From IMG/VR virus record IMGVR_UViG_3300020443_000131, positions 1-35,946 of that record: DNA of 35,946 nucleotides. One strand, written 5' to 3'. This document shows positions 2,474 through 19,199 of the stretch, in pieces (the stretch's first letter is position 1; each line of letters starts with the position of its first letter). The notes under the pieces were generated by a model. That model was not told the origin of the DNA and did not search any database. It saw nothing but the letters and a program-made list of their open reading frames with translations. This stretch comes from a virus. The position numbers and the translations under genes were made by a program.

Positions 2474-3487
2474 TTAATCTTCATCTTTGAGTAGTGAATA
2501 GTCTTTGAATCTGATTACTTCCTCACCTAGCCAATCGTTAATCTGTAGCATCGTCTGTTGTAAAGGCATAAGCTCATTGACTGCGAAAACTCTGGCCGCT
2601 TTGATTAGATCACCAAAGCCCGCCGCATTGGTCGGTGACGCCCCCATCAGTTGAGGTGGTACTCGATGAGCAGCTGCAATATCTATTCGACTCGCTTCTT
2701 TGATTTTAAAGAAGTCATCATTGGCACTGACTTCACTGATCGGTAAGATTTGGATTCCATCCTTTTTACCGTTGGGCGAATACATGAATAGGTTACGAAA
2801 GTTACCAGGGCCTTTGCTGTCCTTCAAAGCTTTACGGATTGCATCGATGTCTTCTTTGTTTGTTGCTGGATCATTGATGTATAAGATGTACCCCGCATGA
2901 CTACCATTCAAGTAATACTTACGTCTGAATAACGTCGCTGACTCATCAAGCCATGCTGCATTTAATGCGGACAAATATTCAGGTGCACCATACACTTCTT
3001 GATTAACATCAGGCTCTATAATATGGCAGATATTCTCTGCTTTGTACTTATGGGGTTCGGCCCAGCTATGCGTGGCAAAGTAGTAGCTTTCGCCGTCAGT
3101 ACCCACACGCATGTACTTACCTAGTGGTACGTTTAGCTTCATAGTTTTTTTTGATCGTGACTGTACTCGCTCAACGTATGCGTTGCCAAACGTCAAATGA
3201 TCTAGTGCAAGCTTACTGAAATCACGATGTGATAGTAAAGGATGCGGTATAAAAGTACTGGCCAAGATATTGCGCTTAACAAAAATTGCACTACTATGAT
3301 GTGGTGATGCTCTCATGGTTTTAGACAAGGCATCTGGATCGTATGGCGGCGCATACCATAGTTGATGATTATGACATTCACCCCAGTACAGACTTTGCCA
3401 CTGCTCCATAACTGGTATCGGATCGCCAAACGTGAAAGCCTCCATACCAGGCATATCTACTGCATCAAGGTTTTCAGTTTCATTCAT
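2474..3487 (-). CDS. Q: Phage portal protein (P2 gpQ, PBSX-type family)
   Basis: Dodecameric portal that forms the DNA entry/exit vertex of the capsid and docks terminase and the head-tail connector. At 337 residues it matches the P2 gpQ length (344). Conserved-looking stretches include FTFGDPIPV near residue 20 and the HLTFGNAYVE and MGASPTNAAGFGD regions. Its ATG shares one base with the stop codon of the terminase gene (TAATG), so it is translationally coupled to gpP, and a strong terminator follows. Leftward orientation next to cos is the same as in P2. The start is fixed by the overlap with P. Confidence 0.92.
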   Translation of the reverse strand: MNETENLDAVDMPGMEAFTFGDPIPVMEQWQSLYWGECHNHQLWYAPPYDPDALSKTMRASPHHSSAIFVKRNILASTFIPHPLLSHRDFSKLALDHLTFGNAYVERVQSRSKKTMKLNVPLGKYMRVGTDGESYYFATHSWAEPHKYKAENICHIIEPDVNQEVYGAPEYLSALNAAWLDESATLFRRKYYLNGSHAGYILYINDPATNKEDIDAIRKALKDSKGPGNFRNLFMYSPNGKKDGIQILPISEVSANDDFFKIKEASRIDIAAAHRVPPQLMGASPTNAAGFGDLIKAARVFAVNELMPLQQTMLQINDWLGEEVIRFKDYSLLKDED

Positions 3488-5271
3488 TAATATATCTCCA
3501 GTGCTGATTCGTCATCACCTTGAGCAATTGCCAAGGGTTCTCTATGTAGTGCATGCATAAGTGCCCACGCTAAGTCAGCATGACCAGTATCTTCATTGCG
3601 ATCGGCTTTATAAGTAACTGCCCTTTCGCTATTGGTAATTGTTTTATGGATCGATGTGAAAGCCCCTACTACATCTGTCCATTCGTGATCAAAGGACAAA
3701 CGGCCCTTCTTGATAACGTCTTTAGTCTTCAGAACAAACTGCTGTTTGAGCTCTGGGCTATAGTGTAGTTTGACGGCTTGCGGGTAGAACTTAATCACTG
3801 ACTGATAAACACCAATGCCAAGGCCGGTCACATCAATCGCTATATATTCAACGTTATATTTCTCCGTCATCTCTCTGATGACGTTTGCCTGTGCTTCAAA
3901 GTCTGGGTTTTTAAACTGCAAACGCTCTATACCGCGTATCATGCCGTTTGGTGTACTTGGTGCTGCTAATATTACAAGTCCAGCGCTATCACGGCTCAAT
4001 GACGGATCATAGCCAAGCCATACTGGCTGATTACCAAGTGGCCTTGGCGTGTAAGGCTTCCAGTCATCCCATATCTCTAATGTATCGACCATGCATGACT
4101 GTAGTTCGCTGACACTGAAAGCGGACAACGTGTCATCAATAAATTCACACATCAGCAAGTTATTAAACTCGTCCTCGCTGTATTCCATGCGTAAATCATC
4201 AATATCAAATAGATCACAACCGCCTTTCATCGCGTCATACACATTGACGATTTGACGCCACTGCTTGTCACCGCAGACCTTGCCATTCTTCAGATTATGC
4301 GGAGTCACATCTATTTCGATGCGATCGTCACCTTTACGGCCACGGTTATACAGTTGGCCAGTCCAAAATTTATATGCTTGATGTTGCTTGGATGATGGTG
4401 TCGATATGTATGTCTGACGCCATTTTTTGTGCATGGCCATACCTGATGCAACTTTTCTGAATTCAATAAACTTATGAATCCAAAAATATTCGTCCATATA
4501 TACGTTGCCGTGATACGACTGCGCGGTACGGCTGTTTGTACCTAAAAAATACAGGCTTGCGCTGTAGTCCTTTTCTGGGCCTTCGATGTTGAGTGTAATT
4601 GGATCGCCAGTCAGCTCGATCCCTGCCGTTTCCATCGCCCATGCAATGATGTATTCGCGGAATACACGCGCTTGCGCCTTGGATGCGGATAAAAATATTT
4701 GATTACGGCCAGTCTCAATGGCATCAAGAAATGCCTCGCGTGCGAAATACCAAGTTGCGCCAATTTGGCGTGATTTTAATAGGTTACGGATACGATTAGT
4801 GAGACCTGCGCTGTACCAGACTTTTTGATAATCAAACAGGCAATCACGGAATGAGTCTTTGAATTTATCGATATCATCTATCTGTATGACGTTTGAAGGG
4901 TTTTTTTGTCCTGCTTTGCGCCCACGGTTGGATAGGTTGGGATTGAGATCCGACTGTTTGCCAGACTCTTTATATTTATGGATCTTGGCCATTCTCTCTA
5001 CTTGACGACCAAGCAGGTCAATCTCTTTGAAGTCTTTACCAGTCTTATCGTCTTTGTTAATCAGCTGTACCAATCGCGCTTCGAGCGTGGACTCTACTCG
5101 ATCTAGAGGCTTTGCTTCATCCCAACCGTCTGATTTTTTCCATCCATCTACGGTCGTGCGCGGTGTACTAACCATTTCTGCAATCGCGCTAATACTCCAA
5201 CCTTGCCAATAGAGACCACGGGCAACGGTTTTGGGGTTCTCTCCAGTCGGTAGGGTGATAAGGGCAGACAT
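3487..5271 (-). CDS. P: Terminase large subunit, ATPase/nuclease (P2 gpP)
   Basis: Motor that packages DNA and cuts cos. An N-terminal helix-turn-helix segment (about residues 15-50) is followed by an ATPase with a Walker A-like SRQIGATW (about 167-174) and Walker B VYMDEYFW (257-264). The C-terminal RNase H-like nuclease has likely metal ligands Asp422 (LGYDPSLSRD) and Asp480 (AIDVTGLG). Its 594 residues equal the usual gpP size (about 590). It is first in the leftward P-Q operon and divergent from O, with a 173-bp gap holding the predicted bidirectional late promoter. Confidence 0.94.
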   Translation of the reverse strand: MSALITLPTGENPKTVARGLYWQGWSISAIAEMVSTPRTTVDGWKKSDGWDEAKPLDRVESTLEARLVQLINKDDKTGKDFKEIDLLGRQVERMAKIHKYKESGKQSDLNPNLSNRGRKAGQKNPSNVIQIDDIDKFKDSFRDCLFDYQKVWYSAGLTNRIRNLLKSRQIGATWYFAREAFLDAIETGRNQIFLSASKAQARVFREYIIAWAMETAGIELTGDPITLNIEGPEKDYSASLYFLGTNSRTAQSYHGNVYMDEYFWIHKFIEFRKVASGMAMHKKWRQTYISTPSSKQHQAYKFWTGQLYNRGRKGDDRIEIDVTPHNLKNGKVCGDKQWRQIVNVYDAMKGGCDLFDIDDLRMEYSEDEFNNLLMCEFIDDTLSAFSVSELQSCMVDTLEIWDDWKPYTPRPLGNQPVWLGYDPSLSRDSAGLVILAAPSTPNGMIRGIERLQFKNPDFEAQANVIREMTEKYNVEYIAIDVTGLGIGVYQSVIKFYPQAVKLHYSPELKQQFVLKTKDVIKKGRLSFDHEWTDVVGAFTSIHKTITNSERAVTYKADRNEDTGHADLAWALMHALHREPLAIAQGDDESALEIY

Positions 5272-5444: not shown

Positions 5445-6281
5445 ATGACTACCAAAACTTTTCGAGTTGCACGCGCTGGCCAAACTACGGACGGCCGTGA
5501 AATCACTCGCGAACAGATAACTCAAATGGCCGCCAGCTATAATCCAGAAGTATACGGTGCACGGGTAAATTTAGAACATTACCGTGCAATGTTCCCAAAT
5601 TCTGACTTTCGCTGTTATGGCGATGTGATATCGCTATCGACTGAAGAAGTTGATGATCATTTATATCTATTGGCAGAAGTTGATCCAACGCCTGAATTGA
5701 TCGCGCTCGCCAAGTCGAAGCAAAAGGTTTATTTCTCTATTGAGTTCTATCCAGAATTTGCTGATACCAAAGAAGCTTATATGGTTGGTTTAGCTTGTAC
5801 CGATAGTCCTGCCTCACTTGGCACCAGCTATATGAAGTTTTGCCAACAGAACCCCGACGATAGCCCCTTATCTGCTCGCAAACAAAACCCTGACACCTAC
5901 ATTTCCACTGCCGAAAGCGCTTGGGAGTATAAAGAAGAGCCAAAATCAGTCTTTGCAACCGTCAAAGATATGTTTGCCGCACCTGTCACACCTAAAACAG
6001 ATAAAGACAAAGAGCTGGCCACCGCACAAGCTTTTGCTGAACTGCCGGCAACCATCAAAAGCTTCCAAGATGTTATGCAAACAATGGCAAGTTCTATCGA
6101 CACGATCAACACCTCTATTGGGCATTTGAACACCACGGTATCTGATTTTGCTGAAAAGCAAAACGAAGTTGAAACGTCTTTGAAGAGTGTGCAAGACAAT
6201 CTTGATAATACGCCTGAAGACAATTATACCCAGCGTCCAGCTGCAACCGGCTCATCTGATTACGTCAAATCTGACTGCTAA
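5445..6281 (+). CDS. O: Capsid scaffolding protein with serine protease domain (P2 gpO)
   Basis: Internal scaffold that shapes the procapsid and cleaves itself, the capsid and portal proteins. The N-terminal half resembles the P2 gpO protease. Likely triad: Asp16 (TTDGREI), His45 (LEHYR) and Ser98 (YFSIEF), spaced like P2 Asp19/His48/Ser107. The C-terminal part (about 180-260) is a predicted coiled coil rich in D/E/Q/T, the scaffold region. Length 278 versus 284 in P2. The RBS is weak (GGA six bases before ATG). It follows the divergent late promoter and leads the head operon. Confidence 0.92.
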   Translation: MTTKTFRVARAGQTTDGREITREQITQMAASYNPEVYGARVNLEHYRAMFPNSDFRCYGDVISLSTEEVDDHLYLLAEVDPTPELIALAKSKQKVYFSIEFYPEFADTKEAYMVGLACTDSPASLGTSYMKFCQQNPDDSPLSARKQNPDTYISTAESAWEYKEEPKSVFATVKDMFAAPVTPKTDKDKELATAQAFAELPATIKSFQDVMQTMASSIDTINTSIGHLNTTVSDFAEKQNEVETSLKSVQDNLDNTPEDNYTQRPAATGSSDYVKSDC

Positions 6282-6336
6282 TACTACCTAATAGCAATAC
6301 TTAACTGACTACTACACACATTAGGACTTCCCCAAT

Positions 6337-7356
6337 ATGAAAAATACTACCCGTCAGCAATTTAACGGCTATCTTGAAAACCAAGCACAGTTAAATGGCG
6401 TACCGAATGCAACTGATCAATATACCGTCGTCCCTTCGGTTCAACAAAAGGTTGAAGAGCGAATTCAAGAATCAAGCGAGTTTTTGAAAAAAATTAATAT
6501 TACGCCAGTAACTGACCAAAAAGGTGAGGCATTGGGGCTTGGTATTAGTGGTGGTATTGCAAGCCGTACAAATACCAAATCTGGCAAGCGTCGTGAACCA
6601 AAGAATGTCGGTGAAGTCGGTATTCTTTACACTTATGTCTGTGAGCACACAGATTTCGACACTTCTATTCAGTACAACAAAATTGACAGCTGGGCACGTG
6701 ATCCCAAATTCCAAGAGAAAATTCGTGATGCTGTATTAAAGCAACAAGCACTTGACCGTATAACAATTGGCTTTAACGGTACTGAAGTAGCTGTTGAGAC
6801 TGACATTGATGTTAATCCTTTATTGCAGGACGTTAACATTGGCTGGTTACAAAAATGGCGCTCTAATGCTCCAGAGTCAGTGATGACAGAATCTGAAGCT
6901 GGTACCGGTCAAGTGACAGTAGGTGCGACTGCAACTAGCTACAAAAACCTTGATGCGCTAGTAAAAGATTGTGTTGATCAGCTGATTGATCCTATTGTTC
7001 GCGATGATAGTGCATTGCGCGTTATCTTAGGTCGTGATTTAAAACAATCACGTGACTTTAATATGGTCAATGACAACAACACGCCCAGCGAAGTCATCGC
7101 AGTAAACAGCCTATTAATGCTAGATAAAGTCGGTGGTGTGCAGATTGAATCTACTCCTCCTAATTTCCCAGCTGACGCTATTTTAATCACACCACTCGAT
7201 AACCTATCTATTTACTATCAAGAAGATAGTCGTCGCCGTCATCATAAAGATGAGCCTGAGTATAGTCGCGTTGCTTTTTATGAATCAGATAATGAAGCGT
7301 ATGTGGTTGAGAACTATAAGGCGGGCTGCTTGATTGAAAATGTTGTACTGGTCTAA
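6337..7356 (+). CDS. N: Major capsid protein (P2 gpN)
   Basis: HK97-fold shell subunit of the icosahedral head. The whole 339-residue protein tracks P2 gpN (357). Examples are the N-terminal segment with FNGYLENQAQLNGV, the VPSVQQKVEERIQESSEFL stretch, GWLQKWRSNAPESVM and the C-terminal DNLSIYYQEDSRRR and AGCLIENV motifs. Maturation probably removes the N-terminal arm through the gpO protease. An 8-bp hairpin spans its stop codon (7344-7364) and might stabilise or attenuate this abundant message. Confidence 0.94.
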   Translation: MKNTTRQQFNGYLENQAQLNGVPNATDQYTVVPSVQQKVEERIQESSEFLKKINITPVTDQKGEALGLGISGGIASRTNTKSGKRREPKNVGEVGILYTYVCEHTDFDTSIQYNKIDSWARDPKFQEKIRDAVLKQQALDRITIGFNGTEVAVETDIDVNPLLQDVNIGWLQKWRSNAPESVMTESEAGTGQVTVGATATSYKNLDALVKDCVDQLIDPIVRDDSALRVILGRDLKQSRDFNMVNDNNTPSEVIAVNSLLMLDKVGGVQIESTPPNFPADAILITPLDNLSIYYQEDSRRRHHKDEPEYSRVAFYESDNEAYVVENYKAGCLIENVVLV

Positions 7357-7364
7357 CCAGTACA
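7344..7364 (+). other. Hairpin over the capsid gene stop codon
   Basis: TGTACTGG and CCAGTACA pair around a TCTAA loop that contains the gpN stop codon (7354-7356). There is no T-tract, so it is not a standard terminator. An RNA-stability or processing element is possible. Confidence 0.45.
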
Positions 7365-7413
7365 GCAGTTTCGCAATCTAATGTAGCCAAAAGACTCAAT
7401 GAAGGATGAAATC

Positions 7414-8169
7414 ATGACAGATAAAACAACCCCAGCGGCTCGCCACCGCCAGAAGGCTCTATCACAAAAAGAAGTAACCAATATCACTGCGGGGCCCAAT
7501 CAAGCCTATCGCATGTTGCAACTAAAATTGCGTGAAGATAAGCAGGCGTTAAAGTCTAAGCAATCTATCCAAGCCAAAATTGAGCTAAAGCGCGAATTGG
7601 TTGGTCATTATGACGAATGGATCAATGCAACTTTAACAGCCGGTAAAGGCGATCAAGACAATCTATTGACCACGCTTATGCTTTGGCATATCGATATCGG
7701 TAGCTTTGAGCGTGCGCTTGATATCGCTGAATACGCGATGAAGCATGATTTGAAAATGCCAGACGCGCATCAACGTACACTCGCTACTGTCGTCGCTGAA
7801 GAGATTGCTGACACTGCCAAAAAACTGGCTGCCAGTGGTGAAATCACTGATGAGCAAATCGCGCAAGTATTGCGAGCATCAACCATAACAGCTGAAGAAG
7901 ACATGCCTGACCAGGTACGCGCAAAGCTATCACGCCAAGTCGGTGAATTGACTGAGGCTGTCAATCCAGTATTTGCATTAGATAACTTTCAAAATGCGCT
8001 GAAGTTTGACGAAAATAGTGGTGTAAAAGGCTCTATTAAACGCCTTGAGAAACAGCTTAAAGATGCTGAGCTCAAACATGAAGATGAAGCACCTCAAGAA
8101 ATAGTATCAGAGCCACCTACTATTGAGCCTATTCAGTCGGATTCACCTGAAGTGCTAAAGGAATCATAA
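7414..8169 (+). CDS. M: Terminase small subunit (P2 gpM)
   Basis: DNA-recognition subunit that guides gpP to cos. I place the start at 7414 rather than the in-frame ATG at 7399: AAGGA (7402-7406) sits seven bases before 7414, and the resulting N-terminus with SPAxRH-like TPAARHRQ matches the beginning of P2 gpM. The product is 251 residues (P2 247). Shared features include the GKGDQDNLLTTLMLWHIDIG segment, ADMPDQVRAKL and a charged C-terminal tail. It lies between N and a Gp49-like gene two bases downstream. Confidence 0.9.
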   Translation: MTDKTTPAARHRQKALSQKEVTNITAGPNQAYRMLQLKLREDKQALKSKQSIQAKIELKRELVGHYDEWINATLTAGKGDQDNLLTTLMLWHIDIGSFERALDIAEYAMKHDLKMPDAHQRTLATVVAEEIADTAKKLAASGEITDEQIAQVLRASTITAEEDMPDQVRAKLSRQVGELTEAVNPVFALDNFQNALKFDENSGVKGSIKRLEKQLKDAELKHEDEAPQEIVSEPPTIEPIQSDSPEVLKES

Positions 8170-8171
8170 TT

Positions 8172-8468
8172 ATGCAAGTTATCACTGTTGAGTTTTTAAC
8201 GTCTGAAATTGTACCTAATGGTGTTACGTTTACCCGAATAGGCGCAAAGCTTACTCACTGCCAGATTGAAACTAAGTCTGGGTTCGTCTTTACAGGTGAA
8301 AGCGCTTGTGTAGACCCTTCTCGATATAACCAAGCAATGGGTGAAAAGATCGCTTATCAAAATGCACTCAACAAGATGTGGGAGCCTTACGGACTTTGGC
8401 TTTCAAAGATTTTGCATGACAAGAATAAACCAGATTCGCCTGAACTACTAGGCGAAAACAACTCGTAG
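8172..8468 (+). CDS. N4 Gp49/Sf6 gene 66 family protein
   Basis: A 98-residue protein with the family signature GFVFTGESACVDPSRYN followed by MGEKIAYQNALNKMW, typical of phage proteins of the N4 gp49 / Sf6 gp66 family, whose biochemical role is unknown to me. The start overlaps nothing and follows M by two bases, so it is co-transcribed with the head genes. It is not part of the core P2 set between M and L and looks like a small accessory insertion. A 106-base gap with an AGCCGC/GCGGCT inverted repeat follows. Confidence 0.8.
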   Translation: MQVITVEFLTSEIVPNGVTFTRIGAKLTHCQIETKSGFVFTGESACVDPSRYNQAMGEKIAYQNALNKMWEPYGLWLSKILHDKNKPDSPELLGENNS

Positions 8469-8574
8469 CCGCGAGCCGAGGCGGCTCATAACTGCATTCA
8501 GTTGATACTGCACATGACAATTATGACCACCGCCTCACCCTATTTTATTTTTCTTATCAATATTTGGAGTTGTT

Positions 8575-9027
8575 ATGGGTTTTAGTGCTGTCAATCCAGT
8601 CGTAGATAACATAGTAATTACTCCTGCATTTATGCCTGATATTTCTGTCAAAGACTTTGCTGATGCAATGAAGCTTGACGGCACAGTAACACCAGCGCGA
8701 ATGAAATATGCGTTGACTGATTCTGCAAATAGCGTCTGTCGTGAGTTAAAAGCTTGGACGGCCAATGCGCTACACCAGCACGGCTCTCTTACTTTAGAAG
8801 ATTACGACCTGACTAATGATACAGACAAGTGTTTTAGCTTCAAAAAGGCCGTCTACAACTTAGCAAAGGCACAACTGACTGAACATTATCGTGACTATGA
8901 CACAGGCAAAGATGCTACTGCTCGTACTAAAGAGCTCACACCGCAAATCGATACGTGCTATCGCAATGCACGCAATGCAATTGCTGATATCAAAGATGAG
9001 CCGCATTCAACCATTGAGCTTATCTGA
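8575..9027 (+). CDS. L: Head completion/stabilisation protein (P2 gpL)
   Basis: Connector component that closes filled heads and joins the tail. 150 residues, compared with 169 in P2. The position between terminase small subunit and tail gene X and the DISVKDFADAMKLDGTVTP and KAVYNLAKAQLTEHYRDYD segments fit gpL. An AT-rich region with TTGGAG precedes the ATG. Its TGA shares one base with the ATG of X (TGATG), indicating coupled translation. Confidence 0.87.
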   Translation: MGFSAVNPVVDNIVITPAFMPDISVKDFADAMKLDGTVTPARMKYALTDSANSVCRELKAWTANALHQHGSLTLEDYDLTNDTDKCFSFKKAVYNLAKAQLTEHYRDYDTGKDATARTKELTPQIDTCYRNARNAIADIKDEPHSTIELI

Positions 9028-9233
9028 TGCGTGTTGTATCGACATTGCAAGGCGACACAGTAGATTTGATCTGCTTACGCTATTTCAGCTTCACTGGCGG
9101 CGTTACTGAACAAGTTATGGATCTCAATCCGCATCTGGTTGGTTACGATCTTGTATTGCCTACCGGCGTTGATATCCAATTGCCAGACGCGCCCGAACGT
9201 ACACAAAAGCAGGTCATTCAATTATGGACGTAA
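9027..9233 (+). CDS. X: Tail protein X (LysM-like)
   Basis: Small tail protein needed for tail assembly. At 68 residues it equals the usual gpX size (67). It shows the LysM-like pattern of P2 gpX: QGDTVDLICLRYF near the N-terminus and HLVGYDLVLPTGVDIQLPD in the second half. The start overlaps the L stop codon by one base, and the 3' end overlaps the next gene by ten bases. Confidence 0.88.
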   Translation: MRVVSTLQGDTVDLICLRYFSFTGGVTEQVMDLNPHLVGYDLVLPTGVDIQLPDAPERTQKQVIQLWT

Positions 9234-9631
9234 CTCAAATTCAGGTATTAACGATTGATGATGTTATGAGTAACCATCTGCAATGGTTGTTGATTACTTT
9301 GCCTGTTATCTGGGCTGCCGCTGGTGGCGCTTGCATTCGTCTATTGTTGATCCGCGCCGAGCCTTTTTGGATGCGAGCTCAAAATGCGACTGCGGGTGTA
9401 TTGCTTGCAGTGATGCTGTCGGATATTACTGCAAAACTATTGACGGGTGGCAACTATGCCACTGGCTACGCAATCATTTATGGCATGGTCGGACGAGAAT
9501 TGTTCGTCACATTTTATGACTTCGTGAATGACAATGTACGACCCCTTCTAATGTCTGCTTTGCGTCATTTTTTCCCTTTTTTATTCAAAGATAAACCAGC
9601 CAAAGAGGCGGACAATCATGATCATTCTTGA
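9224..9631 (+). CDS. Holin-like membrane protein 1
   Basis: 135 residues with about three hydrophobic segments (about 21-43, 53-73 and 77-97) and a charged, His/Asp-rich C-terminus. Position after X and before the muramidase is the lysis cassette slot of P2-like phages (gene Y holin), so a holin role is inferred from size, topology and place. I do not recognise a specific family signature. It overlaps X by ten bases and the next membrane gene by 14 bases. Confidence 0.65.
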   Translation: MDVTQIQVLTIDDVMSNHLQWLLITLPVIWAAAGGACIRLLLIRAEPFWMRAQNATAGVLLAVMLSDITAKLLTGGNYATGYAIIYGMVGRELFVTFYDFVNDNVRPLLMSALRHFFPFLFKDKPAKEADNHDHS

Positions 9632-9929
9632 GACGTTATCGACTTTATCTATCATTGTCATTGCCATCGTTTGTGCTATGACAATCATTAAATATCATCG
9701 CGAGCTTGGCTCACTGGTTACGCTCACTATTTTATTTTTCGCGCTGAGCTGTGTCGGCTTGGCATTTGATGAGACCACTGGTCGGGACGGTGTATGGGCC
9801 CTACCCATATTTCGTATGCTTGCCGCTGCTGCAACCGCTACTACTTATTTTAAATTAAGAGCCTTTTGGACGCGTTATGGCGTGTTCATTAGCGCTATTA
9901 ATCAATCAAAAAAGGATAATCTTGTATGA
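9618..9929 (+). CDS. Holin/antiholin-like membrane protein 2
   Basis: 103 residues with three predicted membrane segments (about 5-24, 32-50 and 61-78) and a basic C-terminal tail. It is overlapped at both ends (14 bases with the previous gene; ATGAG overlap with the muramidase), so the lysis genes form one translationally coupled block. Adjacent paired small membrane proteins are common in P2-like lysis cassettes. Which of the two is the pore former and which a regulator cannot be told. Confidence 0.65.
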   Translation: MIILETLSTLSIIVIAIVCAMTIIKYHRELGSLVTLTILFFALSCVGLAFDETTGRDGVWALPIFRMLAAAATATTYFKLRAFWTRYGVFISAINQSKKDNLV

Positions 9930-13932: not shown

Positions 13933-14922
13933 ATGGCCAACTACTATGTATTACTCACTGACTATGGCAAGTCATTTATTGCCAATGCCCAAGCGGATTC
14001 ACAGCTTGCATTGACCAATGTGGTGTTAGGTGATGCTAATGATCAGCCATATCTGCCTGATTCGCGTTTGACTCAGACTAGCCTGGTGAATCAAAGAGCA
14101 AAAGTAGCCGTAACCTCTATCAAGATCGTCAATGACACGACGGCTGAAGTATCTGCCGTCATACCGTCCAATGTAGGCGGCTTTAACTTACATGAAGTGG
14201 GAATTACAGATAGTAGTGGCAAGCTTGTCTACGTGGGAAACTTCCACGGTGGCTATCGCCCAACGCTGACTGAAGGTGCAGGCGGTGACATGGAGCTTAT
14301 ATTTACGATTACTGCAGACAACCTTGCGACTGTTGTCATTGAAATGGACGGCAACGTGGTCATTGCTACTCGCGATTGGGTTGCCGACCGTTTTGCTTTG
14401 AAATCTTTAGTGAGTGAACTACACGATATTATCAATCAATTACAGGATGAGCTTATGGCTACCCAGTTTGAAGTGCTTTCAGGTCGTATCAAAGAAATAG
14501 AAGATGGCATTGCAGGGCTTTTAGATTTACAGCCATATAAAGTTGGCGATATTTACCAGACAACCATCAATCATTCAGACGCGTCTGCTGTGGCTGCCCA
14601 TCACGGCTATGGTACGTGGGAACGATTTGCTGAGGGCAGAACCCTTGTCGGACTATCTAAAAAAGCAAGTGATCCTAGCGACTATAAAACTATCGGCAAT
14701 GAGTTTGGTGAAAATGAGGAAACTCTGACGCTTGCACAGATTCCAAATCATGATCATACCGTTGATATGCATAGTGGCAGTATTGATGGTGGTACTCGCG
14801 CTGGTACTCAGAACACCAGTTCCAGTGCTGCAAATATCAAGACTAACGCTGTAGGTGGCGGTGAAGCACACAACAACATTCAGCCATCAAAAGTGGTTGG
14901 CAAGTGGTTACGTACTGCTTAA
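13933..14922 (+). CDS. H: Tail fibre protein with collar domain (P2 gpH-type, short)
   Basis: Receptor-binding fibre. Residues about 1-155 are the conserved gpH N-terminus that attaches to the baseplate (MANYYVLLTDYGKSFIANA, LHEVGITDSSGKLVYVGNF). A short helical linker follows, then a C-terminal tip of the collar/T4 gp12-like kind: GTWERFAEGRTLVGL, IPNHDHTVDMHSG and AHNNIQPSKVV, with His residues that could bind metal. It is only 329 residues versus 669 in P2, so the shaft is very short. No gpG fibre chaperone follows; the next gene is the sheath N-terminal piece. Confidence 0.88.
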   Translation: MANYYVLLTDYGKSFIANAQADSQLALTNVVLGDANDQPYLPDSRLTQTSLVNQRAKVAVTSIKIVNDTTAEVSAVIPSNVGGFNLHEVGITDSSGKLVYVGNFHGGYRPTLTEGAGGDMELIFTITADNLATVVIEMDGNVVIATRDWVADRFALKSLVSELHDIINQLQDELMATQFEVLSGRIKEIEDGIAGLLDLQPYKVGDIYQTTINHSDASAVAAHHGYGTWERFAEGRTLVGLSKKASDPSDYKTIGNEFGENEETLTLAQIPNHDHTVDMHSGSIDGGTRAGTQNTSSSAANIKTNAVGGGEAHNNIQPSKVVGKWLRTA

Positions 14923-14959: not shown

Positions 14960-15520
14960 ATGGCATCAACTACTTACCATCACGGCGTCACTGCTACTGA
15001 GACCAGTAATATCACGCCAATTATCAAGTCCGTCAGCACGAGCACGATAGCACTTATCAGTACTAGCGCTGACGCTGATGACACCGCTTATCCTCTTGAT
15101 ACGCCGGTACTACTGACCGGCATTACCACGACTGATGTCACTAACGCAGGTAGCGATGACCAGTTATTGCATCAATGCTTACGCACGATTAAATCTATCC
15201 AGAATACGACTGTTGTTGTTCTGCGAGTATCTGAGCCAGTCGATTTGACAACAGTAGATACGCTACTGAGCTGCCAGTCTCGCCTTGGTGTGACGCCCAA
15301 GATTTTGATCGCGCCTGAAATTGATACACCAGACATGACACGCAAGCTGGTAGAGATCGCCAAAAAACGCCGCGCATTTGTCTATGCGTCGCCGCGAGCT
15401 GAAGACGGCACGTTGATTACAGCGAAAGAAGATATTGTTGCCTATCGTGATACGTTCGCTGCTCGTGAGCTGATGCTGGTTGAAGGGGCTTTTGGTAAGC
15501 CGGTCGCGCCGGGAAAGTAA
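14960..15520 (+). CDS. FI: Tail sheath protein, N-terminal fragment (split P2 gpFI)
   Basis: The first half of the contractile sheath subunit. 186 residues containing YHHGVTATETSN, LISTSADADDTAYPLDTPVL, LSCQSRLGVTPKILIAPEID, KRRAFVYASPR and IVAYRDTFAARELMLVEGAF, which follow gpFI up to its middle. Then the reading frame ends after FGKPVAPGK. The continuation (KSLSNV... and the C-terminal polymerisation core) is found 1974 bases downstream at 17494. The piece has its own RBS (AAAGGA, 8 bases before ATG). The fragments total 385 residues, close to intact P2 gpFI (396). It may be a broken gene or half of a two-chain sheath. Confidence 0.85.
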   Translation: MASTTYHHGVTATETSNITPIIKSVSTSTIALISTSADADDTAYPLDTPVLLTGITTTDVTNAGSDDQLLHQCLRTIKSIQNTTVVVLRVSEPVDLTTVDTLLSCQSRLGVTPKILIAPEIDTPDMTRKLVEIAKKRRAFVYASPRAEDGTLITAKEDIVAYRDTFAARELMLVEGAFGKPVAPGK

Positions 15521-15552
15521 CACGGCGACTATGGGCAAGTAAGCCATATCCT

Positions 15553-15942
15553 ATGCTGGTCGAAAAAGAAGACGTTTATCAGCCCACAGTTAAGCCGTTA
15601 AACATCACAATGAGACGGATATTAAAAGACACAACGATTGACAGTGATGCATATACACCAAGTGTTAAGCCGTTAGATATTACGATGCGTAATATACTGA
15701 GAAAGCGGAATATAGATGAAAAAGAAGCCTATATCTCGTCTATTAAGCCTTTAGATATCACCCTCAAGCGTGAGCTGCTTGAAAAGAAAACGTACATAGA
15801 TGAAAAAGAAGCCTATATTCCGTTGGTCAAACCACTGGATATTACTCTAAAGCGTTTACTTATTGAGCATGACGTTTACGACAATGACGCATATATCCCG
15901 TCGGTCAAACCACTGGATTTAACACTAAAGAAAGGAGTTTAA
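15553..15942 (+). CDS. Five-repeat protein in the sheath-interrupting cassette
   Basis: I do not recognise the family. 129 residues built almost entirely of five repeats of about 25-28 residues with the core Y-x-P-x-V-K-P-L-D-I-T-(L/M)-K/R-R-x-L, separated by charged linkers (DEKEA, DNDA); the fifth repeat is cut short at KKGV. DNA-level repetition is visible (GATGAAAAAGAAGCCTATAT occurs twice). The frame is open upstream to about 15499, overlapping the sheath fragment, and no clear RBS precedes the ATG, so its true 5' end may have been lost or may lie upstream. It could be a fibre or tip protein; that is only inference from its neighbours. Confidence 0.7.
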   Translation: MLVEKEDVYQPTVKPLNITMRRILKDTTIDSDAYTPSVKPLDITMRNILRKRNIDEKEAYISSIKPLDITLKRELLEKKTYIDEKEAYIPLVKPLDITLKRLLIEHDVYDNDAYIPSVKPLDLTLKKGV

Positions 15943-15943
15943 A

Positions 15944-16897
15944 ATGAACATGAGCAATATAGGTGTAGCAGGTGAAGCGCGATTTGTCGTACTAAGAGCC
16001 GATGGAACAGTCAAGTCCGATACAGGCTATCAAAAAAACTTAATCCTAAATCAGGGGTTAGAGTATTTTGGTGGTGGCATCGGTGGAGATATCAATGAGA
16101 AATGTGTAATCGGGGCTGGTAACAGTGCCCCAGCCGTTACTCAAACAACTTTAGATTCCTTTATTGCTATTGCGACAGGTACAGATACTACTAAGGATTA
16201 CAGCTACACAGATACAGGTGACGGACTGTATAAAATTTGGGAGCAAAGAAAATATCGCTTCACTGGGCTAGGGAATGTCAATATTAGCGAGGCAGGGCTA
16301 GCAAGTAAAGGAAGTACATCCTCAGACTATTACCTAACCACCCGTGTTTTGATTAAAGACGAACTGGGTGCGCCAACGTCTATGGGCTTAAAACTGGGTG
16401 AAACCCTAGATATCTATTATAAGCTCTATAAAGTTATTGATACAACTGATAAGTCTTTCGTTGTTAATGTCAGTGACGGTCAAGATATACCTACTCTGAC
16501 GCCATATAACGTAGTGATTAGACCTGCTTTGGTCGGCACTAGTAATCATAGAGTAAGCGGAGGTATAAAAACCGTCCCTTACGTTAAAATTGGTACTGAT
16601 GATTTAGAAGCAATTACCTCTGAACCCGTAGTAAATAATTCTGAAGGTATGATGACTGCTGAAACTTACGTAGTTGGTAGTCATAAATGTAAATTGGTTG
16701 TTAATTTTGGCCTTAATAATTCTAATGTAGCCATAAGGACTTTGTCTCCAACTTATGCAGGGTATGTTTTTAACTTATTCCCTTTCCAAATGCGCCTCGG
16801 TCGGGTGTCAGATGATGCACCACTAACTAAAACAAATAAAGACACACTGGCTATCCCACTTGAAGTCAGCTGGAGACGCTTTGAGGGTGAGCTGTAA
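15944..16897 (+). CDS. Uncharacterised phage tail-associated protein
   Basis: 317 residues, strong RBS AAGGAG six bases before ATG. The N-terminal GEARFVVLRADGTVKSDTGYQKNLILNQGLEYFGG resembles, in style, a recurring start of virion proteins in many tailed phages: a beta-rich opening followed by a KNLI-like segment. Most of the rest is Gly/Thr/Asn-rich beta-type sequence without catalytic motifs, and no signal peptide or membrane segment is seen. Overlap of one base with the next gene and tight spacing suggest a three-gene unit. A tail-tip or fibre accessory role is plausible, not shown. Confidence 0.72.
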   Translation: MNMSNIGVAGEARFVVLRADGTVKSDTGYQKNLILNQGLEYFGGGIGGDINEKCVIGAGNSAPAVTQTTLDSFIAIATGTDTTKDYSYTDTGDGLYKIWEQRKYRFTGLGNVNISEAGLASKGSTSSDYYLTTRVLIKDELGAPTSMGLKLGETLDIYYKLYKVIDTTDKSFVVNVSDGQDIPTLTPYNVVIRPALVGTSNHRVSGGIKTVPYVKIGTDDLEAITSEPVVNNSEGMMTAETYVVGSHKCKLVVNFGLNNSNVAIRTLSPTYAGYVFNLFPFQMRLGRVSDDAPLTKTNKDTLAIPLEVSWRRFEGEL

Positions 16898-17481
16898 TGT
16901 TGCTCGATGACACGCTGGTTGAGCTTGATAGCGCCTCGTTTTTGCCACCACGCAATAAGTCACAGACAGCGACAAAGTGCTGGGAGCTGGGCGGTATCGC
17001 GCTATCTGACACCAGTGAGCCTATGCAGTACTACTGGTACGGCTACGTCAAAGGTAAAGCTATTTACCTACAGCGTAGCGGCGTTGAGCCAATCGCAGTA
17101 TTAGCGTTTGCGGGTGATGTCACTGAGATGAGCTTTAGTTTTGATCAGAATATGCGCCCAACGATTGCATACGTCGAAAATGGCGTTGCTAAGTTGTATT
17201 GGTATGACTCAAGCGCGGCTAAAAACGTGCTGACGTTATACCCGACTATCACCAATCCGCGCTTGTCGCTTGATGATAAGCGTAAGTTTAACATCGGTAA
17301 CAGCGACATTATTTTTGCGTATGTGAGTGATCACAATCGTCTGTGCTACCGCTTACAGCGCGAGCGTTACGGTGCTGAGCATGTACTGCTAACTGACACT
17401 ACGAAGTCAAATGATGAGCCGTTGACGTTATCTACGATTGGTATGAGCACTTCAAACCGATTTCTATTCCTAACCAATTAA
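16897..17481 (+). CDS. Uncharacterised protein, third gene of the cassette
   Basis: 194 residues, start overlapping the previous stop codon by one base (TAATG). It is aromatic- and Tyr-rich, with beta-strand patterns such as YYWYGYVKGKAIYLQ, IAYVENGVAKLYWYD and IIFAYVSDHNRLCYRLQ that look like successive blades or strands of a beta-propeller-like or fibre-head fold. Family not recognised. The stop codon is followed by AAGGGA, the RBS of the sheath C-terminal piece. Likely a virion structural component by location. Confidence 0.7.
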   Translation: MLLDDTLVELDSASFLPPRNKSQTATKCWELGGIALSDTSEPMQYYWYGYVKGKAIYLQRSGVEPIAVLAFAGDVTEMSFSFDQNMRPTIAYVENGVAKLYWYDSSAAKNVLTLYPTITNPRLSLDDKRKFNIGNSDIIFAYVSDHNRLCYRLQRERYGAEHVLLTDTTKSNDEPLTLSTIGMSTSNRFLFLTN

Positions 17482-17493
17482 TAAGGGAAAATT

Positions 17494-18093
17494 ATGGCCC
17501 AAGTAACCCCAATCATCGCAGTAGCCGCAGCTCTACGCGCCCACCTAGACAAGACGCACCAGTACAGCTTCGTCAAGTCGCTGTCTAATGTCGCCATCGA
17601 TACTGTTAGTGGTATCAAATATCCGCGTACCTGGGATCTAGAAGACCCAGATACTGAGGTCGGATACCTAAACGCCAATGACGTGACCAGCCTGATTCAG
17701 CATAACGGCTTTAGATTTTGGGGCAGTCATACTTGCTCTGATCAGCCTGAGTATATGTTTGAGCCAGTCGTGCGTACCTCGCAGTTTTTGCTCGATACTA
17801 TTATCAATGGCTGCTTTCAGTTCATTGATCAGCCGCTATCACCAACAACCGTCCGTGACATCATTCGTGCCATCAATGCCAAGCTGCAGGAGATGGTTAA
17901 TTTTGGATATTTAATTGGTGCAAAGTGCTGGTACAACAACGAGCTAAACAGCGAAACGTTGCTCATGCAAGGCAAGCTATATCTAGATTATGACTTTACC
18001 CCAGTGCCTAATCTCGAAAACCTTAACTTGAATCAGACGATCACTGATACATACCTGGTCAACTTTGCCGACTTGGTAGCAGCAGCGGCCTAA
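17494..18093 (+). CDS. FI: Tail sheath protein, C-terminal fragment (split P2 gpFI)
   Basis: Second half of the contractile sheath. 199 residues containing AVAAALRAHLDKTHQYSF, KSLSNVAIDTVSG, YLNANDVTSLIQHNGFRFWG, RTSQFLLDTI and LDYDFTPVPNLENLNLNQ, the most conserved part of gpFI that forms the polymerisation core. It begins with its own ATG and RBS AAGGGA (five bases spacing). It is directly followed by the tube gene FII, as an intact FI would be. About 15-20 residues around the junction are missing or replaced relative to typical intact sheaths. Confidence 0.88.
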   Translation: MAQVTPIIAVAAALRAHLDKTHQYSFVKSLSNVAIDTVSGIKYPRTWDLEDPDTEVGYLNANDVTSLIQHNGFRFWGSHTCSDQPEYMFEPVVRTSQFLLDTIINGCFQFIDQPLSPTTVRDIIRAINAKLQEMVNFGYLIGAKCWYNNELNSETLLMQGKLYLDYDFTPVPNLENLNLNQTITDTYLVNFADLVAAAA

Positions 18094-18131: not shown

Positions 18132-18659
18132 ATGTTACCTCGTAAATTAAAGAACTTCATGGCCTACAAAGGCCTTGGTAACCAAAAGCGCTATCAAGGT
18201 CAGATCCCAGAGATTGAGCTGCCCAAACTGACTCGCGTGCTCGAAGAGTATCGCGCTGGTGGTATGGATATGCCGGTCAAGGTGGACTTGGGCCAAGAAG
18301 CCATGGAGATGACCATTAAGTGCGGTGGTCATGAAGCAGATTTGTACCGCGACTTTGCACGTGCTGGTATTGATAAGGTCGTCTTGTCGTATTCAGGTGC
18401 GTATCAGCGTGATGATGACTGCAGTGTGTCAGCGGTCGATATCTATTGCCGTGGTCGCTTAGAAGAAATCGACCCTGGTAGCGCCAAGCTAGGCGACGAC
18501 ACAGAAGAGTCGTTCAAGTATGCACTGGCTTACTACAAGCTGGTCGTAGACGGTGAAGACATCATTGAAATTGATGCCATGGCCATGAAGTGTATCGTTA
18601 ATGGTGAAGACCGACTAAAAGAGATCCGTGAAGCAATGGGAATGTTTACCACCGTCTAA
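18132..18659 (+). CDS. FII: Tail tube protein (P2 gpFII)
   Basis: Major inner tail tube subunit. 175 residues (P2 172). Features: MLPRKLKNFMAYKGLGNQKR start, LTRVLEEYRAGGMDMPVKVD, QRDDDCSVSAVDIYCRGR and the C-terminal MKCIVNGEDRLKEIREAMG. AAGGAAACC precedes the ATG. It sits between sheath and chaperones as in P2. Confidence 0.94.
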   Translation: MLPRKLKNFMAYKGLGNQKRYQGQIPEIELPKLTRVLEEYRAGGMDMPVKVDLGQEAMEMTIKCGGHEADLYRDFARAGIDKVVLSYSGAYQRDDDCSVSAVDIYCRGRLEEIDPGSAKLGDDTEESFKYALAYYKLVVDGEDIIEIDAMAMKCIVNGEDRLKEIREAMGMFTTV

Positions 18660-18741: not shown

Positions 18742-19074
18742 ATGAACAACATCGAAATGCCAACTATCGAACTAGACTACCCTATCATTCGCGGTACTGG
18801 CGACAAGCAAAAAGAGATTAAAGAATTTACCCTGCGTCGTCCGATGGGTGGCGACTTGCGTGGCCAGTCACTCATTGACATTTCAATGGCCAAAGTCGAT
18901 GCCCTAGCCGTAGTACTCCCTCGCATCAGTAACCCAGTCATCCATGAGCATGAAGTCAAAAACATGGATGCCGCTGATTTGATGGATGTGGGGTTAACTA
19001 TTGCAGGTTTTTTTACCAAAGCGAAACATCAGTTGCAAGCCGAAACCGAAACCGCAGCTATCCCAACCGCGTAG
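18742..19074 (+). CDS. E: Tail assembly chaperone gpE
   Basis: 110 residues. Binds the tape measure protein during tail assembly. The segment FTLRRPMGGDLRGQSLIDI and the ISNPVIHEHEVKNMDAADLMDVG region fit the P2 gpE/mu-type chaperone family. A run of seven T (19008-19014) near the 3' end serves as the frameshift site for the longer product. The RBS is AAGGA, eight bases before ATG. Confidence 0.9.
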   Translation: MNNIEMPTIELDYPIIRGTGDKQKEIKEFTLRRPMGGDLRGQSLIDISMAKVDALAVVLPRISNPVIHEHEVKNMDAADLMDVGLTIAGFFTKAKHQLQAETETAAIPTA

Positions 19075-19199
19075 AAGACTGCATGGCAGACATCGCCTTG
19101 GTGTTCGGCTGGACACCAGACGCGATGTATCACATGACGATCGAAGAGCTTGCTGATTGGCGCGAACGAGCGCGTATCCGTAATAACCCTGATGAATGA
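18742..19199 (+). CDS. E': gpE+E' by -1 ribosomal frameshift
   Basis: At 19008-19014 the message reads GG T.TTT.TTT ACC in the E frame. A -1 slip on T-TTT-TTT shifts into a frame that stays open from 19014 to TGA at 19197-19199 and yields 61 extra residues ending in MADIALVFGWTPDAMYHMTI and EELADWRERARIRNNPDE. This is the P2 E' signature (MAxxFxWxxxxMYxMxxxELxxWRxRA). A stand-alone ATG at 19083 exists but the fusion is the expected product. Frameshifted chaperones of this kind are established for P2 and most long-tailed phages. Frame arithmetic was checked. Confidence 0.88.

Follow-up and report, generated by a model that had tools for sequence, protein, structure and literature searches.

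How is the sheath of a contractile tail to be understood when its gene lies in two separate pieces? The question is raised by IMG/VR virus record IMGVR_UViG_3300020443_000131, positions 1 to 35,946, the whole stretch of 35,946 nucleotides that was analysed and is referred to here as the window. A sequence-only reading of the window had listed five open reading frames (ORFs) on the plus strand, at 14960–15520 (186 amino acids), 15553–15942, 15944–16897, 16897–17481 and 17494–18093 (199 amino acids), had taken the first and last as two halves of one tail sheath gene, and had left a choice between a recombination-broken phage and a genuine two-chain sheath. The list is correct, and profile matches confirm the two halves: the N-terminal piece (the N chain) matches PHROG 23, tail sheath, at 2e-22 over the N-terminal part of that family, and the C-terminal piece (the C chain) matches its C-terminal part at 6e-62 and Pfam Phage_sheath_1C (PF17482) at 7e-12. 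The N chain comprises the N-terminal arm and the outer sheath domain; the C chain, which does open, as had been proposed, with its own ATG and Shine–Dalgarno sequence (AAGGGA), comprises the inner polymerizing domain and the C-terminal arm (R2 pyocin sheath residues 197–385, 2.8e-24). The two ORFs are 1973 bp apart, the space between them being filled by a 1.97-kb cassette of three ORFs. We argue here that the locus is likely to encode a two-chain sheath that displays exchangeable recognition modules, often in sub-stoichiometric amounts via frameshifting.

The split is a real, long-conserved trait of single origin and not damage. A search with the C piece gathered 45 viral contigs from IMG/VR, some of them cut at their ends, and 12 isolate loci; the split is found in 43 of the 45 contigs, the exceptions being L044 and L045, and in isolate genomes of Psychrobacter nivimaris, P. 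pacificensis, P. glaciei and several Acinetobacter. Among annotated phage records the only split relative recognized is Bracchivirus 2F_1 (MF417929), a circular genome which, according to passages of the paper describing it, originates from phage preparations that had been passed through 0.45-µm filters, treated with DNase and shown to contain tailed particles; a split sheath is not mentioned in the passages searched (PMC6095929). The sequence-only reading had proposed looking for the same split in Psychrobacter and other Moraxellaceae prophages, and every close relative in 105 Psychrobacter and 176 Acinetobacter genomes proved to be split. Full-length matches to the C half with at least 60% identity number seven in Psychrobacter, in frames of 203–219 amino acids, while two distant matches (25–27%) lie in frames of more than 400; in Acinetobacter 13 matches of at least 60% lie in frames of 203–257 amino acids, and matches of 57% or less in frames of at least 393. 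Frame length around the C half is thus bimodal across whole genomes. Elsewhere in the order almost all sheaths are intact, the few short frames adjoining contig ends or containing stops, and a search of the plasmid collection yielded no relative more than 60% identical.

When 102 C halves, 56 of them from split and 46 from intact sheaths, are placed on a maximum-likelihood tree, one change suffices between the split and intact states, with support of 100/99 and in 100% of bootstraps. The change lies inside the P2-like sheaths, although the exact sister group is unsure because the nearest intact rows, L044 and L045, are long branches. Nei–Gojobori omega values against relatives are 0.05–0.10 for most pairs of N chains and 0.02–0.08 for most pairs of C chains (0.02–0.03 for the window C chain against near relatives), and a Shine–Dalgarno-like sequence accompanies the N chain in 64 and the C chain in 52 of the 66 loci that have both halves. 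It could be argued that recombination broke the sheath gene and left a defective phage, and a few degenerate copies do exist (L140, with stops in its C chain, and L013, in its frames). Because the clade has one origin, both halves are under strong purifying selection across two genera and a circular genome has been recovered from phage particles, the probability of this explanation is reduced almost to nothing, while conservation, one origin and selection on both halves support the two-chain alternative. Plain disruption was accordingly rejected, on the single-origin tree and the recurrence in isolates and contigs, and with it the assembly error at 15520–17494 that had been named as a possible refutation, since isolate genomes, IMG/VR contigs and the circular phage genome show the same arrangement.

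The break falls at a joint of the sheath fold. Intact sheaths are continuous at the place where split forms have the end of the N chain, after WPEFTSGNVFLG, and the start of the C chain, at LKYGTGIFTAAVAAAALRAETD (in the comparison of intact with split forms, '..WPEFTSGNVFLG' and 'MTLKYGTGIFTAAVAAAALRAETD'). On the R2 pyocin sheath, whose chains are the closest solved relatives, the break maps to residues ~184–200, at the hairpin that joins the outer and inner domains. An AlphaFold model of the fused N chain of L034 contains the sheath outer domain at residues 25–190 (predicted local distance difference test score ~90), a disordered linker (191–205) and a separate folded domain (206–349), and its residues 18–200 superpose on residues 20–200 of R2 pyocin (Z 16–17, root-mean-square deviation 2.7–3.0 Å). 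Some intact sheaths of other Pseudomonadales (L107, L112 and L124–L126) have an in-frame insert of ~110 amino acids near residue 40, a different, unsplit insertion site in the outer domain.

The position of the break is consistent with a sheath subunit that would be a heterodimer, the N chain contributing the N-terminal arm and outer domain and the C chain the inner, tube-contacting polymerizing domain and C-terminal arm. The two chains would be translated from separate starts and would assemble together into one contractile sheath, as do TssB and TssC in the sheath of the type VI secretion system (T6SS); the hairpin turn would be replaced by the break, whose new chain end would serve as an attachment slot for cargo. 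Alternatively, the C chain alone might form a minimal sheath, the N chain being a separate decoration or fibre-anchor protein that is not in every subunit. The inner domain does bear the C-terminal arm, evolution is faster in the N chain than in the C chain, and the divergence of N and C differs in some pairs (L041/L033), indicating separate recombination. The N chain, however, retains both the N-terminal 'HHG..E' arm of intact sheaths and the whole outer-domain core, which makes a sheath of C chains improbable.

What occupies the break differs among the 66 loci, some of which are redundant. The N chain has an in-frame C-terminal extension of 69–210 amino acids in 26 of them, preceded in some (L006 and L050) by a Gly/Ser/Asp-rich linker, while in 36, the window included, the N chain is short and one to four genes come after it. 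A single locus, L018 (4907–6561), has an extra 137-amino-acid domain on the front of the C chain, so that cargo is tolerated on the C side of the break as well; three loci (L020, L031 and L140) have none, the N-chain stop abutting or overlapping the C-chain start. That in-frame modules (69–210 amino acids) are smaller than those reached by frameshifting (25–649) is a trend only (P = 0.066). All cargo lies on the sheath strand and falls into ~25 sequence clusters, in which Pfam and PHROG recognize BspA leucine-rich repeats (LRR_5), DUF285, Laminin_G_3, GDSL hydrolases, immunoglobulin-like (Ig-like) or Hoc-like domains, tail fibres and proteins of diversity-generating retroelements (DGRs). The window, L003 and L048 combine near-identical sheath chains with different cassettes, which indicates rapid exchange of modules.

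The DGR is complete in L135 (oriented 5746–9915) and L136, identical prophages that both lie on contig 12 of one Psychrobacter genome (G098), where a variable protein, bAvd (PF22296, 4e-17), a template repeat and a reverse transcriptase (PF00078, 2e-15) all lie inside the split sheath. Template and variable repeats show ~17 core differences, 15 of them at template adenines, so that these two loci, and not the window, possess the reverse transcriptase, accessory protein and adenine-directed repeat differences of a DGR. A third reverse transcriptase, 80% identical, lies on contig 9 of G098. Between L003 and L048 the DGR variable protein shows 91% identity over its body, falling to 59% over the final 45 columns; no matching reverse transcriptase was found in the L048 genome. 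At another locus (L137 of G108, raw 2570–4077, minus strand), a glycosyltransferase-like gene and an NAD-dependent epimerase gene stand beside an in-frame N-chain extension, and L009 has a homologue of the former. The 186-amino-acid glycosyltransferase-like protein gave no Pfam or PHROG match, its identity being our own reading, and it possibly glycosylates the displayed domain.

In the loci with a short N chain and a cassette, the route from sheath to cargo appears to be a ribosomal frameshift. In every one of the 36, the final 30-odd bases of the N chain include GGGAAAG or GGGGGAG in the phase that −1 slippage requires. Twelve Psychrobacter loci have GGGAAAG directly 5' of the N-chain stop; these include the window, where G GGA AAG, read in the zero frame, occupies 15511–15517 and is followed immediately by UAA (15518–15520). 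Slip heptamers occupy 36 of 480 codon positions at the homologous place and 8 of 29,710 elsewhere in both chains, an enrichment of ~280-fold. GGGAAAG conforms to the pattern X XXY YYZ, in the zero frame before a stop with an open −1 frame beyond, to which GGGGGAG corresponds partly. The −1 frameshift of lambda gpG/gpGT uses the slippery heptamer G GGA AAG, and the lambda tail chaperone site functions without a strong stimulatory structure. From the heptamer into the first cassette ORF the −1 frame adds 117–649 residues, save in L013 and L014 (25) and L046 (32), and the downstream sequences of at least 60 amino acids form five families; since these have no mutual similarity, shared downstream sequence does not explain the shared −1 phase. 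A +1 frameshift was ruled out, as the +1 frames close within 36 codons at every slip-site locus. Two further routes were also rejected: readthrough joining N to C would not be conserved, because the frame from the N stop to the C start varies between loci, and an inserted self-splicing element finds no such domain in the window cassette (Pfam and PHROG), the C chain moreover having its own start.

The −1 frames rarely have a usable start of their own. A start with a Shine–Dalgarno sequence in the first 45 codons is present in 5 of 33, against the proportions given above for N and C chains, and omega over their start-less first 33–60 codons is 0.05–0.24. In cassettes of the window type the protein GKVTRRLWASKPYP(M/V)LVEK.. 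is conserved from the heptamer on, without a conserved start codon; the ATG of the window's first cassette ORF (gene 1, 15553–15942) is replaced by V in L002 and L005 and by T in L007, L012 and L015, and in L048 a whole Ig-like segment is encoded ahead of the first ATG (codon 133). As the window −1 frame, beginning at 15511–15517, is open across the UAA and runs to 15942 (~140 added residues), gene 1 is probably the frameshifted tail of the sheath N chain. The sequence-only reading was thus right that the intervening ORFs are on the same strand and probably wrong to treat 15553–15942 as a free-standing gene; nor did it contain the −1 signal, the in-frame fused forms of relatives, or the observation that the cassette encodes recognition-type proteins and turns over rapidly. 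Most GGGGGAG sites are followed 5–7 nucleotides 3' by a stem-loop (CCCCCTCACA..TGTGAGGGGG); among nine distinct loci z is −1.5 in L033 and between −1.9 and −6.0 in the other eight. Covariation is weak, because inspection by eye picked out only a single double compensatory change (L021/L026); RNAalifold on a MAFFT alignment misplaced the stem owing to gaps.

Judged from these sequence signals, ribosomes may slip by −1 at G GGA AAG or G GGG GAG, often enough to leave a recognition module on the C terminus of a minority of N chains. In the in-frame form a smaller module would be present on every N chain, or, once (L018), on the C chain. In either case the cargo would be displayed on the tail exterior for host recognition.

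In the window the −1 tail (15511–15942) contains five repeats, 'DAYQPTVKPLDITLKxxL' (in shorter form 'AYxPxVKPLDITLK'), a repeat absent from all phage records searched. Next come two plus-strand tail-fibre genes, one encoding a 317-amino-acid protein (15944–16897; PHROG 4176 tail fiber, 7.5e-39) with its own strong Shine–Dalgarno sequence, the other a 194-amino-acid protein (16897–17481; PHROG 4950 tail fiber, 8e-41). On alignment the 317-amino-acid fibre is conserved in its N-terminal half and variable in its C-terminal half, and its structure gave no significant match in the PDB. Its homologues occur as consecutive fibre genes in phages of Stenotrophomonas and Xanthomonas; homologues of the 317- and 194-amino-acid proteins lie side by side in fibre operons of Stenotrophomonas phages and of Xanthomonas phage CP2, where the homologue of the 194-amino-acid protein again comes second. 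The pair (15944–17481) is homologous to fibres of non-contractile phages (Schitoviridae and Xanthomonas siphophages), and these fibres have therefore moved between tail types. It is tempting to speculate that the five-repeat tail anchors the 317- and 194-amino-acid proteins.

The same genes could be read differently, the two-chain sheath being functional and the cassette genes ordinary baseplate fibres that have settled in a recombination hot spot by H, with the −1 overlap reflecting translational coupling. In the window, genes 2 and 3 possess starts of their own and are homologous to ordinary fibre genes of non-contractile phages, the cassette comes directly after H in a region that is variable in P2-like phages, and a coupled gene also lands in the −1 frame with 4-nucleotide overlaps. 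Such an origin would not, however, account for the 26 loci that fuse cargo in frame to the N chain or for L018, which fuses it to the C chain, for −1 frames without usable starts whose protein is nonetheless conserved ahead of the first ATG, or for the enrichment of slip heptamers at this one place. Baseplate fibres in a hot spot are thus an unlikely explanation of the cassettes as a whole.

Several observations nevertheless weigh against a frameshift-loaded display sheath. Genes 2 and 3 of the window are separate and could attach to the baseplate instead; the −1 frame yields only 25–32 residues in L013 and L046; the 21-member downstream cluster is perhaps joined by one shared short motif only; and the stem-loop beside the window's own GGGAAAG is ordinary (z −0.2). 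Furthermore, GGGGGAG is not a textbook −1 heptamer, since re-pairing of GAG to GGA in the A site is imperfect, and the 36 loci are not independent, because slip sites are inherited with the N chain. With these points taken into account we still favour, though with less assurance than the two-chain sheath with its modules in general, the view that the sheath is a display array, that is, a hairpin-broken heterodimer bearing exchangeable modules, some of them diversified by retroelements, on a fraction of subunits set by frameshifting.

Where does such a sheath stand among known contractile systems? Both halves match the P2/R2-pyocin sheath family in sequence (PHROG 23 and PF17482), and the locus resembles P2-like FI and the R2 pyocin sheath PA0622 in fold and in the gene order H, FI, FII. 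The FI slot lies between the tail-fibre gene H (13933–14922, plus strand, 329 amino acids; PF12571, 5e-29, and PF21939, 2e-19) and the tail tube gene FII (18132–18659, plus strand; PF04985, 1e-53). Whereas the P2-like and R2 pyocin sheaths are one continuous chain, this slot holds two ORFs 1973 bp apart with a cassette between them, making the locus a variant and not an ordinary member of the family. Gene E further downstream (18742–19199) has a −1 frame open past its stop for ~40 further residues (VEDCMADIALVFGWTPDAMYHM..), which is putatively the usual P2-type E/E' chaperone frameshift; no canonical slippery heptamer was found in the last 60 bases of the gene.

Frameshifting that puts a surface domain on a minority of an abundant structural protein is established in T7 10A/10B and SPP1 gp17.1/17.1*, and Fraser and colleagues reportedly described in 2006 Ig-like domains appended by frameshifting to phage virion proteins. 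The T7 and SPP1 cases concern capsid or tail-tube proteins, in contrast with a sheath chain that ends mid-fold and takes exchangeable modules; we know of frameshift-appended domains on tube and capsid proteins and of none on a sheath. Lambda gpG/gpGT, which shares the heptamer G GGA AAG, is a tail assembly chaperone and not a virion surface protein. L135 and L136 resemble the Mtd DGR of Bordetella phage BPP-1 in having a variable protein, Avd, a template repeat and a reverse transcriptase, but their variable protein continues the sheath chain in the −1 frame, inside the split sheath gene.

According to a review, a single sheath protein is the rule in phages and extracellular contractile systems, all the phage sheaths it covers being single chains, whereas the canonical T6SS has two, TssB and TssC, which correspond to the N- and C-terminal parts of the phage sheath (PMC5924787). 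TssB/TssC (VipA/VipB, IglA/IglB) thus resemble the present pair in that two chains cover the N and C parts of the sheath, and differ in not being phage-borne and in having neither cargo cassette nor frameshift between the chains. TssB/TssC were not among the top structural matches, which is uninformative either way, and were left out of the tree of C halves. The split most likely arose independently of TssB/TssC, because in sequence the present sheath is far nearer to the single-chain P2/R2-pyocin sheath. Searches of the open-access literature on split sheaths, frameshifted sheaths and Psychrobacter sheaths returned no relevant report, and as far as could be found a two-chain phage sheath is undescribed. 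The sequence-only reading had considered such a split new for contractile tails; this holds for phages and extracellular contractile systems in the literature searched and not for contractile systems as a whole, since TssB and TssC already form a heterodimeric sheath in the T6SS (PMC5924787).

If correct, this interpretation would provide a second, independent two-chain sheath besides that of the T6SS, identify a joint at which the sheath fold can be severed, and hint at how TssB/TssC may have arisen. The contractile tail would carry a natural display platform, with copy number controlled via frameshifting and modules swapped between near-identical phages, and host recognition could spread along the tail, beyond the fibres of the baseplate.

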